Source: Candidatus Tectimicrobiota bacterium (GTDB lineage Bacteria > JACPSX01). Taken from it: DNA of 7,779 nucleotides. Below are positions 3,751 to 7,383 of this stretch, in pieces (positions within the stretch are counted from its first letter, which is position 1; each line of letters opens with the position of its first letter). The DNA is taken from contig JACPSX010000122.1 of NCBI GenBank assembly GCA_016193065.1, positions 1-7,779 of the forward strand, in the 5' to 3' direction. The notes beneath the pieces are model-generated. The model searched no databases, had not been told where the DNA came from, and saw only the letters and a list, made by a program, of their open reading frames with translations. The position numbers were made by a program, and so were the translations under genes.

Positions 3751-4521
3751 CTAAATAAGGGAGCGGGATTGGGATCCATCCACGGCAATGGAGGCGCCCG
3801 AGACCAAGCTCGCCTTTTCAGAGGCCAGGAAAACCACCATGTGGGCTACTTCCTCGGGGCGGCCGAAGCGCCCCAGGGGGAGTTCCTGCTCGACAAAGCG
3901 AGCGATGGCCTCCGGGTTTTCTTGCCGGCGGCGCTCCCAGCTCCCTCCGGGAAAGAGAATGGAGCCCGGCGCGACGCTGTTGACCAGGATGTTGTGAGGG
4001 GCGAGTTCCCTCGACAGGAACTTGGAAAAGCTGATGACTCCGGCCTTGGCTGCATTGTAGATCATGGAGCCCCCCCACTCGCGGCCGAAGACGGAGGCGA
4101 TGTTGATGATGCGGCCGGCGCGGCGCTCCTTCATCCCGGGGACGACGAGCCGGCACATCCGCACCGTCGACAGGAGGTTGATCTCCAGGATCTCGGACCA
4201 GTCCCGATCTTGCGTTTCCAGAACCCCTCCGGACCTTGACCCCCCCACGTTGTTTACCAGGACGTCGATGCTTCCGAACTGACGTGTTGCCTCTTCCACG
4301 AAGGCCTTGGCCTCTTCGTCGCGGGTCACATCGGCGCGGAAAGCAACAACTGTGGCTCCGAGGCCTCGCCATTCCCCGGCCGCCGATTCCAGCCTCTCTT
4401 GCCCGCGGGCGCAGATGGCGACCCGGCACCCTTCGGCGGCAAATCCGGCGGCGATGGCCTTGCCGAGACCCCGGCTTCCTCCCGTGATGAGAACAGCCTT
4501 GTCCCTGAGCCCCAGGTCCAT
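3751..4521 (-). CDS. Short-chain dehydrogenase/reductase (SDR), FabG-like
   Basis: This 256-aa classical SDR would use NAD(P)H to reduce a carbonyl or oxidise an alcohol. The cofactor motif TGGSRGLG occupies 13-20, and R39 after the second strand suggests NADP preference. D74 (ADVT) contacts adenine in the family. The structural NNAG motif is present as NNVG (90-93). The catalytic set is N115, S143, Y155 and K159 (YNAAK), with the usual 12-residue Ser-Tyr spacing. The C-terminus AVDGSQSRSLI is typical of FabG-like enzymes. The start at 4521 is preferred over the ATG nine codons upstream because TGAGGAAA is suitably placed before it and the family begins at this point. It follows motB by 62 bp and may be co-transcribed, although no functional link to the stator is evident. 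The substrate cannot be named. Confidence 0.93.
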   Translation of the reverse strand: MDLGLRDKAVLITGGSRGLGKAIAAGFAAEGCRVAICARGQERLESAAGEWRGLGATVVAFRADVTRDEEAKAFVEEATRQFGSIDVLVNNVGGSRSGGVLETQDRDWSEILEINLLSTVRMCRLVVPGMKERRAGRIINIASVFGREWGGSMIYNAAKAGVISFSKFLSRELAPHNILVNSVAPGSILFPGGSWERRRQENPEAIARFVEQELPLGRFGRPEEVAHMVVFLASEKASLVSGASIAVDGSQSRSLI

Positions 4522-4583
4522 GTGGATTTCCTCACATAAGCTGTGCACTGTTCAGCCATGGTGCGGCAGTTGCCCTACGCTTG

Positions 4584-5456
4584 TCAATCTTTACTCTTGG
4601 TTGGACCTGAGATCTCGGTGAGTCCCCGCCCCGTTTCCTTGTCCAGAACCGTGGAGGCTGTAGGATCAAAGCCGTAAGGGCTAGGCTCGACATGGTTCTC
4701 TCGTATATTCAGGATCACGATGTCAACCCGCCGATTCATTCCCCTGCCTTCCTCGGAATCATTGGACACCAGCGGGCGAAATTCACCGTAGCCTGCGGCT
4801 GAGAGCCGGCGGGGGTCGATGCCGGAGCGCTCGCTCAGATACCGGACCAGGTTGACAGCTCGAGCTGTAGATAGATCCCAGTTGGAGGGATAGGCCTTTG
4901 TTAAAACGGGTGTGTTATCCGTATGTCCTTCAATGCGGATAGGGATTTTCAGGGGTTTTAGGATTTCCGCGAGTTTGTCCACTACCGGCACGAGGTTGGG
5001 AACCAGCGTGGTCTCTCCCGGACGGTAGAACTCGCTGGCTGCCAGGCTCACCACCAGCCCTCGTTCGTCCACGCGCAGGCGGGCCAGGTCTCGGATCTTG
5101 CGAACCTGGATTTCTTCTCTCAGAGTTTTAAAAATTTCATTCTGGATCTGGGCCAGAATGACGTCGTAGCCCCCTTCCCCTTCCCCGCGCCCGGCGGCCT
5201 TTTCCCCCAAGGGGAGGCTGACGGCCTGCTGTTTCTGCTCGGCGGGGAAGATGGAGGCCTTTCCCTGACCAGCCAGGCCGATGAAGTTGAAGGCGGCCTG
5301 GAAGGACGACCCCACCCTTTTCAGCTTCTTCGCGTTGACTTCGGAGATGGAGTACATGACCACGAAAAAAGCAAACAGGAGGGTGATGACGTCCGCGTAA
5401 GAGACCAGCCATCGTTCCTGATTTTCGGGGGCTTCTTCTTTTTTCTTGCGGGCCAT
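4584..5456 (-). CDS. motB: Flagellar motor stator protein MotB (OmpA/MotB family)
   Basis: MotB anchors the stator to peptidoglycan and, with MotA, carries the ion flow that turns the flagellar motor. The 290-aa product has a short basic cytoplasmic tail (1-15) and a single membrane helix (about 17-38). The invariant ion-binding aspartate is D22 in SYADVITLLFAFF. A periplasmic plug/linker follows, then an OmpA-like peptidoglycan-binding domain (about 128-242) with GHTDNTP (177-183), NWDLSTARA (192-200) and NRRVDIVIL (231-239). The linker has a Gly/Glu-rich low-complexity patch (about 81-97) encoded by C/G-rich, palindrome-like DNA. It follows motA by 13 bp. Its GAGGG ribosome-binding site overlaps the motA stop codon, implying translational coupling. 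The sequence does not settle proton versus sodium coupling. Confidence 0.95.
   Translation of the reverse strand: MARKKKEEAPENQERWLVSYADVITLLFAFFVVMYSISEVNAKKLKRVGSSFQAAFNFIGLAGQGKASIFPAEQKQQAVSLPLGEKAAGRGEGEGGYDVILAQIQNEIFKTLREEIQVRKIRDLARLRVDERGLVVSLAASEFYRPGETTLVPNLVPVVDKLAEILKPLKIPIRIEGHTDNTPVLTKAYPSNWDLSTARAVNLVRYLSERSGIDPRRLSAAGYGEFRPLVSNDSEEGRGMNRRVDIVILNIRENHVEPSPYGFDPTASTVLDKETGRGLTEISGPTKSKD
5166..5216 (-). repeat. Low-complexity C/G-rich segment inside motB, repeat-like
   Basis: This in-frame stretch encodes LPLGEKAAGRGEGEGGY, between the membrane helix and the OmpA domain. The DNA combines a CCCCTTGGGG self-complementary core with runs of G, and the translated text resembles the 'LPLGEG..GEG' peptides produced when C/G-rich interspersed palindromes are read as protein. 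This could be an old repeat insertion tolerated in a flexible linker. Simple low-complexity drift is an alternative. Confidence 0.3.
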
Positions 5457-5469
5457 CGTACCGGTTCCC

Positions 5470-6237
5470 TCAAGCGGCCTTGGCCGGCTCCTCTTTCTTC
5501 TCCAGGTAAATCTTCAGGCGCTCTTCCACAATGCGGGGGTTGATCCCCTCCTGGATAGCGAGCACCCCCTCCATGATCATTTCCTGGATAATCCCCCGCA
5601 GCCTGAGCTTGCGCTTCAGCTTGTTCGCCATGGGGAGGAACACGAGGTTGGCGGAGCCGACCCCGTAGACAGTCGCTACGAAGGCCACCGCGATCCCCTC
5701 TCCGATCTTGCTAGGGTCGGCCAGATTTTCCATGGTGTGGATCAGACCAAGGACGGCCCCTAGGATGCCGATCGTGGGGGCGAACCCTCCCGCCGCTTCG
5801 AAAATCTTCAGGGCAGCCTCTTCCTTGCTTTCGTTGATGTCGATCTCGGACTCCAGGAGAGCTTTAATGAACGCGGGTTCCAGGCCATCCACCACGTGGC
5901 GGAGAGCCTTCCCGATCAGGGGGTCCGGGGTGTCGTGGAGGCGATTTTCCAGGGCCAGCACCCCATCCCGGCGGGCTACCGAGGATACCTCGACCAGGAA
6001 CGTCTTGATCTCTTCCGCGTTGGACTTGGGTTCGAAAAAGACCTTGCGGATCAGCCCGAGTCCCCGCAGGAAATCTGCCATTGGGGTGCTGAGCATCGTG
6101 GCCCCGATGCTGCCGCCCATAACGATGATCAAGGCAGTGGGCTGGATGATGGAGCTGACCTTTCCACCCTCCAAAACCTGGCCGCCGATGATGGCCACAA
6201 ACCCCAGAATGAGCCCGATGACGCTCGCTATATCCAT
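5470..6237 (-). CDS. motA: Flagellar motor stator protein MotA
   Basis: MotA is the membrane subunit of the stator; several copies surround a MotB dimer and press on the rotor as ions pass. The 255-aa protein is of normal length for this group. It shows four membrane helices (about 4-22, 29-50, 150-168 and 180-203). A large cytoplasmic loop lies between the second and third helices and carries ARRDGVLALE (88-97), whose Arg and Glu match the charged rotor-contacting residues known in the family. The conserved proline of the third helix is P154 in APTIGILGAVLGL, and VAFVATVYGVGSANLVFLP (184-202) is the typical fourth helix. The start ATG gives the expected N-terminus, but the ribosome-binding site before it is weak. 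It forms an operon with motB. No other flagellar genes are visible. Confidence 0.95.
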   Translation of the reverse strand: MDIASVIGLILGFVAIIGGQVLEGGKVSSIIQPTALIIVMGGSIGATMLSTPMADFLRGLGLIRKVFFEPKSNAEEIKTFLVEVSSVARRDGVLALENRLHDTPDPLIGKALRHVVDGLEPAFIKALLESEIDINESKEEAALKIFEAAGGFAPTIGILGAVLGLIHTMENLADPSKIGEGIAVAFVATVYGVGSANLVFLPMANKLKRKLRLRGIIQEMIMEGVLAIQEGINPRIVEERLKIYLEKKEEPAKAA

Positions 6238-6300
6238 TCAATTTGCCCAGTAAGAGGTGTCAGCCGTGTTCCTGCTCCCAGGTATTCTGTGTGCAGGTTC

Positions 6301-6328
6301 TTATCGACCGTCCGGTCCGCTTTCATTA
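6301..6328 (-). promoter_or_regulatory. Weak candidate sigma-28 (FliA-like) promoter upstream of motA
   Basis: On the minus strand GTCGATAA (6301-6308) matches 7 of 8 bases of the flagellar sigma-28 -10 element GCCGATAA. TAAT (6325-6328) lies 16 bp upstream, close to the expected TAAA at 15. The site is about 64 nt before the motA start, a sensible place for a motility promoter. The -35 part is poor, so this is tentative. The rest of the 206-bp gap (6238-6443) shows no gene or clear terminator. Confidence 0.3.
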
Positions 6329-6443
6329 GAAGTACTTAAAGCGATCCCGGCGTTTCTTATTGATTTTCCGTGGGTCAGGCGGGCTGGGTGGGGCGGGAAA
6401 TCCTACGCAGCGGAGGGTAATTTGCCCGCTCGGGGGACTCTCG

Positions 6444-6854
6444 TCAAACCTTCTTGAGGGCGTCGATCATTTTCTTGGCCTTGTCCAGGTGCACGGCGAC
6501 TGTGGACAGGTGCTTTGAGGTGCGCTCGACCCTCTTCACCAGCGATTCGATCAGCAGGCGTACACCGCGGGGCAGATTCGCGAATTTCTCGTCGAAGGTG
6601 GTGTAGTCAATTACTCCGACGACGAGGTCGTCTATGGCGGTGACGGTGGCGGAACGCAGGCCCTTGGAGATCAGTCCCATCTCCCCGAATATCTCCCCTT
6701 CGGAAAGTTGTTCTATGATCACGCGCTTGCCGTCGAGCTGCCTGGACACCTCCACCTTCCCCGAGAGAACCATATAGGCGGCGTCGCTGACGGAGCCTTC
6801 CCTGAGGATCACGTCCCCCTTCTTGAATTTTTCCTCGTGATGGATTCCCTCCAT
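6444..6854 (-). CDS. Stand-alone cyclic nucleotide-binding domain protein (CRP/PKA-R type)
   Basis: This 136-aa protein is a single cNMP-binding beta-barrel with a helical C-terminus. The barrel occupies about 6-92. It includes FKKGDVILREGSVSDAAYMVLSG (10-32), a standard entry, and the phosphate-binding cassette GEIFGEMGLISKGLRSATV (53-71). Glu58 and Arg67 stand where family members hold the ribose and cyclic phosphate. Residues 97-136 are predicted helical and charged (LIESLVKRVERTSKHL onward), and no helix-turn-helix follows, so it is not a CRP-type transcription factor. It may act by protein-protein contact, and c-di-GMP, cAMP or cGMP could be the ligand. A GGGGAG ribosome-binding site lies 7 nt before the ATG. 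It is preceded by a sigma-54 promoter and followed after 206 bp by motA, which makes motility a possible but unproven context. Confidence 0.9.
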   Translation of the reverse strand: MEGIHHEEKFKKGDVILREGSVSDAAYMVLSGKVEVSRQLDGKRVIIEQLSEGEIFGEMGLISKGLRSATVTAIDDLVVGVIDYTTFDEKFANLPRGVRLLIESLVKRVERTSKHLSTVAVHLDKAKKMIDALKKV

Positions 6855-6916
6855 GTTAGCTCTCCCCGTCTGTTGCCGGTTCTCGCCTCGGAGGACAAGC
6901 AGTCGTCCGATTGTAA

Positions 6917-6932
6917 TGCAACAGGTGTGCCA
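6917..6932 (-). promoter_or_regulatory. Sigma-54 (RpoN) -24/-12 promoter of the cNMP-binding gene
   Basis: The minus strand reads TGGCACACCTGTTGCA, a complete match to the RpoN consensus TGGCAC-N5-TTGCW, with the invariant GG (6930-6931) and GC (6918-6919) exactly 10 bp apart. Transcription would start near 6906, about 50 nt before the ATG at 6854. Such promoters need an AAA+ activator bound upstream, so the gene is probably induced by a specific signal or in a developmental or motility programme. The site lies in the 208-bp gap between the cNMP gene and the terminator of the preceding operon, on the correct strand. Confidence 0.75.
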
Positions 6933-6936
6933 CCTG
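6922..6936. promoter_or_regulatory. Palindrome overlapping the -24 element
   Basis: CAGGTG (6922-6927) and CACCTG (6931-6936) are perfect inverted repeats three bases apart, covering the -24 element of the sigma-54 promoter. It could be an operator at which a dimeric protein competes with RNA polymerase. Part of the symmetry is forced by the promoter bases, so chance is a real alternative. Confidence 0.3.
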
Positions 6937-7000: not shown

Positions 7001-7023
7001 AAAAAAGCGTCCGGAATCCGGAC
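7001..7023 (-). terminator. Intrinsic terminator after the small helical-protein gene
   Basis: On the minus strand GTCCGG and CCGGAC (within 7009-7023) form a 6-bp GC-rich stem around a three-base loop, followed after two bases by TTTTTT (7001-7006). It lies 39 bp after the stop of the preceding gene and just upstream of the sigma-54 promoter, separating two transcription units. Confidence 0.75.
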
Positions 7024-7062
7024 AGGGACACATGGGTCGCAAATTGAGACTGTGAAGAGATC

Positions 7063-7383
7063 TTAAGGATTGGGCTGGCGGATCGCCAGGATCTGGCGCT
7101 CTCTCTCCTCAATGAGGGAGTGCTTCTCCTTTTCAAATTGCGCCTTCAGAGCGGCGATAGCCCCCATTGCTTCTCCGGGCGATCCCTGGAGCAGGATCTG
7201 CTTGATCTTGGCTTCCAGCATGACCTCTTTTTCAGCAATCTTGGCCTTGTATTCCCTTTCGATCTCCGCGACCCTCTCCTTTTGTTCCGCAGTCAAGGGA
7301 GTATAGTGTTCCTTCTCTTCCTGGTGGAGTTTCTCCGTCCTTTCCATGGCCAGGTCTCGGGCGCTCTTCAAGCCTTCGTTCAT
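7063..7383 (-). CDS. Small charged helical protein of unknown function
   Basis: I do not recognise a named family. The 106-aa product is almost entirely charged and helical. A first coiled-coil-like segment (about 30-66, TAEQKERVAEIEREYKAKIA) is rich in Glu/Lys with heptad-like hydrophobics. A Gly-Ser-Pro-Gly turn (67-70) follows, then a second helix (about 72-101). There is no signal peptide, membrane segment or metal motif. A helical hairpin of this kind often mediates oligomerisation or partner binding. The start is well supported by GGGAGGAC about 8 nt upstream. It follows the LLM-class oxidoreductase gene by 36 bp, so the two are probably co-transcribed, and an intrinsic terminator closes the unit. 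Confidence 0.75.
   Translation of the reverse strand: MNEGLKSARDLAMERTEKLHQEEKEHYTPLTAEQKERVAEIEREYKAKIAEKEVMLEAKIKQILLQGSPGEAMGAIAALKAQFEKEKHSLIEERERQILAIRQPNP

Follow-up and report, generated by a model that had tools for sequence, protein, structure and literature searches.

A credible sigma-54 promoter before a cyclic-nucleotide-binding gene beside motAB in Candidatus Tectimicrobiota, and its possible link to the flagellar motor

In Desulfovibrio vulgaris, sigma-54 promoters stand before 19 flagellar operons (PMC4641369). A GTCA-N6-TGAC repeat was reported for the FlrA/FleQ-like regulator DVU2894 (PMC4641369), and we saw neither motA nor cyclic nucleotides mentioned in the text of that paper. 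According to a survey of sigma-54 regulons, activators and sigma-54 co-occur (PMC12316311). Nucleotide control of the flagellar motor is represented by the YcgR-type, c-di-GMP control of MotA/FliG (PMC10140304), and among the hits listed by our literature search there was no relevant report of a cyclic-mononucleotide (cNMP)-binding protein linked to FliG or motAB. The locus described here lies in a 7,779-nucleotide stretch (the window, meaning all of the DNA analysed) from the genome of a Candidatus Tectimicrobiota bacterium. Its genome resembles that of D. vulgaris in having -24/-12 sites on flagellar genes and many enhancer-binding proteins, but here one such site precedes the gene of a cyclic-nucleotide-binding (CNB) protein beside motAB. 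Taken as a whole, the locus is best explained, and we think fairly probably, by a working sigma-54 promoter of a flagellar set from which the CNB protein would be made together with the flagella and would serve as a cNMP-binding signaller.

The order on the minus strand is terminator, sigma-54 site, CNB, motA, and motB, and the features concerned are as follows.

7063 to 7383, minus strand: upstream gene, encoding a 106-aa protein with no match in Pfam or NCBIfam
7008 to 7024, minus strand: intrinsic terminator at the boundary between upstream gene and promoter (terminator scan; arms also found in the inverted-repeat search)
6922 to 6936, no strand assigned: inverted repeat CAGGTG-N3-CACCTG (arms 6922-6927 and 6931-6936), overlapping the -24 element (inverted-repeat search)
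6917 to 6932, minus strand: sigma-54 -24/-12 promoter element TGGCACACCTGTTGCA (exact match and best score with a position-specific scoring matrix, PSSM)
6855 to 6906, minus strand: predicted 52-nt leader with a putative ribosome-binding site GGGGAGAG (6867-6860), read from the sequence
6444 to 6854, minus strand: stand-alone CNB protein of 136 aa (Pfam PF00027, E 1.1e-22; AlphaFold2 model)
6238 to 6443, minus strand: CNB-motA gap of 206 nt, with no terminator-like or sigma-70-like site
5470 to 6237, minus strand: MotA-type stator protein (PF01618, PF20560; NCBIfam NF006583 above cut-off)
4584 to 5456, minus strand: MotB-type stator protein (PF13677, PF00691)

The pattern TGGCAC-N5-TTGCA is matched with zero mismatches at 6932-6917 on the minus strand, which is the strand of the CNB gene, and the ten bases from GG to GC in TGGCACACCTGTTGCA are the correct spacing for -24/-12 elements; the seventh base is A, so that the longer consensus TGGCACG is incompletely matched. 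The site lies in the sense orientation, 62 nt before the CNB ATG, within the 208-nt intergenic gap that separates the CNB gene from the upstream gene (7383-7063). The CNB frame (6854-6444) offers no start codon farther upstream than 6854, which places the site outside the CNB gene. The intrinsic terminator (7024-7008) ends the upstream gene, and therefore the CNB gene requires a promoter of its own; no sigma-70-type site was detected before it in the scanned region. Taking the C of the -12 element as position 6918, transcription would start near 6906 to yield the CNB mRNA, and this transcript would probably read through into motA-motB. A sigma-54 match with exact spacing on the CNB coding strand, serving as promoter of that gene, had been proposed in the initial annotation, and while the match is confirmed, its role as promoter is supported by its exactness, its intergenic and sense placement, its top PSSM score, and the terminator just upstream. 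A sigma-28 promoter before motA (TAAT-N16-GTCGATAA, ending at 6301) was considered and rejected, the pattern being unenriched in the genome (38 occurrences versus 18-64 in controls).

Could such a match arise by chance, with the CNB gene transcribed from an unrecognised promoter? The whole genome (2.9 Mb) holds two perfect -24/-12 matches and none of the pattern read backwards, and at one mismatch the count is 42, versus 26 with the reversed pattern. By chance alone a genome should hold roughly one perfect match, which speaks for this explanation, as does the failure to find rpoN with either the DNA-binding (PF04552) or the core-binding (PF04963) model in this 86%-complete bin. Against it stands the placement of the site, which is sense, intergenic, close to the start codon, and past a terminator; by our own arithmetic, the chance of a perfect match in the 208-nt gap on the right strand is about 3e-5. 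Against it too stands the enrichment of promoter-placed sites. Scanning 83 contigs of the same genome (0.8 Mb) with a -24/-12 matrix based on the published consensus gave the window site the top score, 18.8 of a possible 19.5. Promoter-placed sites (sense, at most 200 nt upstream of a gene, as called by a simple and conservative gene caller with 73% coding) numbered five at a score of at least 14, versus 0.33 in 30 column-permuted matrices (maximum 3), and four at a score of at least 15, versus 0.10 (maximum 1), with the window site counted in both. The genome is also rich in sigma-54 activators: matches to the Sigma54_activat domain comprised 15 strong, one partial, and four marginal ones, and 12 of the 16 best activators carry a GAFTGA or GSFTGA loop. 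Because the bin is 86% complete and activators co-occur with sigma-54 (PMC12316311), we presume that rpoN falls in the missing part. A chance match is thus very unlikely in our judgement. The site itself is genuine, and the promoter is credible and fairly ordinary and would depend on RpoN. The only other perfect match of the genome (G000:C254:5448-5463) is followed by no clear coding gene over the next 260 nt.

Other strong sites of this genome stand on flagellar genes. One contig (C35, L216) has strong sites before fliL and at the start of fliK, in a cluster that also includes flgE and flhA, while on another (C276, L175), which carries flaG and fliD, a strong site downstream of these two genes precedes a response regulator-GGDEF gene and, after it, a PilZ gene. 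Since these sites precede fliL, fliK, and the GGDEF-PilZ pair, the window site is probably a member of a flagellar sigma-54 regulon. Its promoter would then belong to one sigma-54-dependent set with fliL, fliK, and the GGDEF-PilZ operon, and flagellar sigma-54 control would mean that the CNB protein is made during flagellar assembly. The promoter adds an uncultured lineage to the bacteria that apparently use sigma-54 for flagellar genes. Separately, the response regulator-GGDEF and PilZ genes (L175:5818-8351) add a c-di-GMP gene pair, on the flaG-fliD contig, to the likely flagellar regulon, and a prkA serine kinase gene (4451-6538) is preceded, at a distance of 184 nt, by a further -24/-12 site (L214:6723).

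Three GTTGACA/TGTCAAC copies occur in the fliL promoter (L216: 13579, 13763, and 13785), a triple cluster seen nowhere else in 0.8 Mb, and the GGDEF-PilZ promoter (L175:5669-5705) carries TGTCAAC and GTTGTCA. These repeats (L216:13579-13791; L175:5669-5705), a candidate binding site for a flagellar activator, resemble the GTCA-N6-TGAC repeat of DVU2894 (PMC4641369). No GTTGACA-type site was found at the CNB promoter, which has no repeat in common with the other flagellar promoters; this absence counts against the overall explanation, and the activator of the CNB promoter may differ from that of the fliL and GGDEF-PilZ promoters.

The CAGGTG-N3-CACCTG palindrome had been read in the initial annotation as a possible site of direct repression. 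It is indeed present and overlaps the -24 element exactly, which speaks for an operator at which a repressor would keep sigma-54 from binding. This role is not supported: by chance, a stretch of this size should contain about 0.4 perfect 6-bp inverted repeats with spacers of 0-10 nt, and the motif occurs a single time in 1.05 Mb of the same genome. We judge the palindrome to be a chance occurrence and an operator to be extremely improbable.

The CNB protein shares its fold and its phosphate-binding cassette with the single CNB domains of the Bd1971/PKA-R/CRP superfamily, but it lacks a partner domain of the DNA-binding, EAL, kinase, or channel kind and has just a long C-terminal helix. The AlphaFold2 model (pLDDT 88) consists of a beta-roll and one long C-terminal helix (96-134), and among solved structures its fold comes closest to that of the CNB domain in Bd1971, an EAL enzyme of Bdellovibrio. 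PF00027 is the sole Pfam domain, and the protein ends after the single helix without a C-terminal helix-turn-helix of the CRP/FNR type, in agreement with its earlier description as a sensor that lacks a DNA-binding domain. In known CNB proteins a Glu and an Arg of the cassette hold the phosphate, and both are retained in the cassette FGEMGLISKGLRSATV. Because this canonical cassette is retained, the protein should bind cAMP or cGMP, which would be made by the class III nucleotide cyclases of the genome (three domains were found). It should also dimerise via this helix and pass its signal on by contact with other proteins. No close ortholog was found in the sets searched, which included the phyla to which the two best MotA relatives belong. 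Some stand-alone CNB genes of deltaproteobacteria lie inside NADH dehydrogenase operons, in the nuoG/nuoH interval (L079:4923-5393, L101:4908-5375, and L102:4923-5390).

The stator encoded at 4584-6237 looks MotCD-like, because MotA matches NF006583 above the cut-off and the best NCBIfam match of MotB is the MotD model (itself below the cut-off). Of the MotA loci in 386 genomes, the best 29 were compared; three of them carry a sigma-54-like site immediately upstream of motA (L286, 12.9; L308, 17.0; L310, 15.8), so sigma-54 control of motAB would be nothing unusual. No CNB gene was found within ~1.5 kb flanks of MotA in any of these 29 loci. The nearest kin of the window CNB (L034, L037, and L073; support 100/71) were not seen beside motAB either, their neighbours being unrelated genes. 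In neither of these two sets does the CNB gene keep its place beside motAB. These observations speak for a rival reading in which the sigma-54 promoter drives a CNB protein of a promiscuous stand-alone type that is unrelated to motor function and stands beside motAB by chance, motAB having a promoter of its own. Other stand-alone CNB genes are found either within respiratory nuo operons or next to genes of unrelated function, and the 206-nt gap that precedes motA points the same way. On the other side, neither a terminator nor a separate promoter was detected in that gap, the strong sigma-54 sites of the genome fall repeatedly on flagellar genes, and Desulfovibrionales have independently set a CNB-FliG_C gene against motAB. 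We regard a motor-unrelated CNB protein as possible, though on the unlikely side.

In the Desulfovibrionales, a CNB gene abuts motA-motB at five loci, in five genomes.

L035, 4971 to 6134: CNB gene abutting motAB
L036, 4977 to 6164: CNB gene abutting motAB
L038, 4977 to 6140: CNB gene abutting motAB
L040, 4971 to 6131: CNB gene abutting motAB
L042, 4977 to 6140: CNB gene abutting motAB

According to Pfam, four of the five proteins carry a FliG_C domain at their C-terminus (E 1e-9 to 2e-6), and the NCBIfam fliG model matched both of the two proteins tested, weakly; the FliG_C assignment comes from Pfam and NCBIfam alone, the structure model of such a protein being too poor (pLDDT 50). Among the 386 genomes, the fusion was found in a single family. 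The arrangement is like that of the window in placing a CNB domain beside motA-motB, but the proteins are longer fusions on a separate branch of the CNB tree, and their genes have no upstream -24/-12 site. In a tree of few columns they form a clade of their own, apart from the window CNB, and a single origin was rejected, as no bootstrap tree, again with few columns, grouped the motAB-linked CNB proteins together. The placement of CNB beside motAB thus arose independently in two lineages, one of which joined CNB to a rotor domain.

That two lineages independently place CNB beside motAB makes the motor idea of the initial annotation more plausible. The cNMP-motor link is a plausible proposal, and an action of the CNB protein on the stator or motor is speculative, a tentative idea that we would rate as rather doubtful. 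If it were true, cAMP or cGMP would control stators directly. YcgR offers an analogous logic, that of a nucleotide-binding protein acting on the flagellar motor, but it has a PilZ domain and binds another nucleotide than CNB, so that the likeness is one of analogy and not of homology (PMC10140304). The strongest form of the idea, with the CNB protein acting directly on MotAB from a flagellar sigma-54 promoter as a cyclic-mononucleotide counterpart of YcgR, and with Desulfovibrionales having evolved the same logic through the FliG_C fusion, is unlikely. The CNB-FliG_C proteins make the motor idea testable, since the group includes the laboratory model D. vulgaris, if the gene is present there. 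The middle of these proteins may be a winged helix, as weakly suggested by a partial NtcA match in L040 and a low-confidence model.
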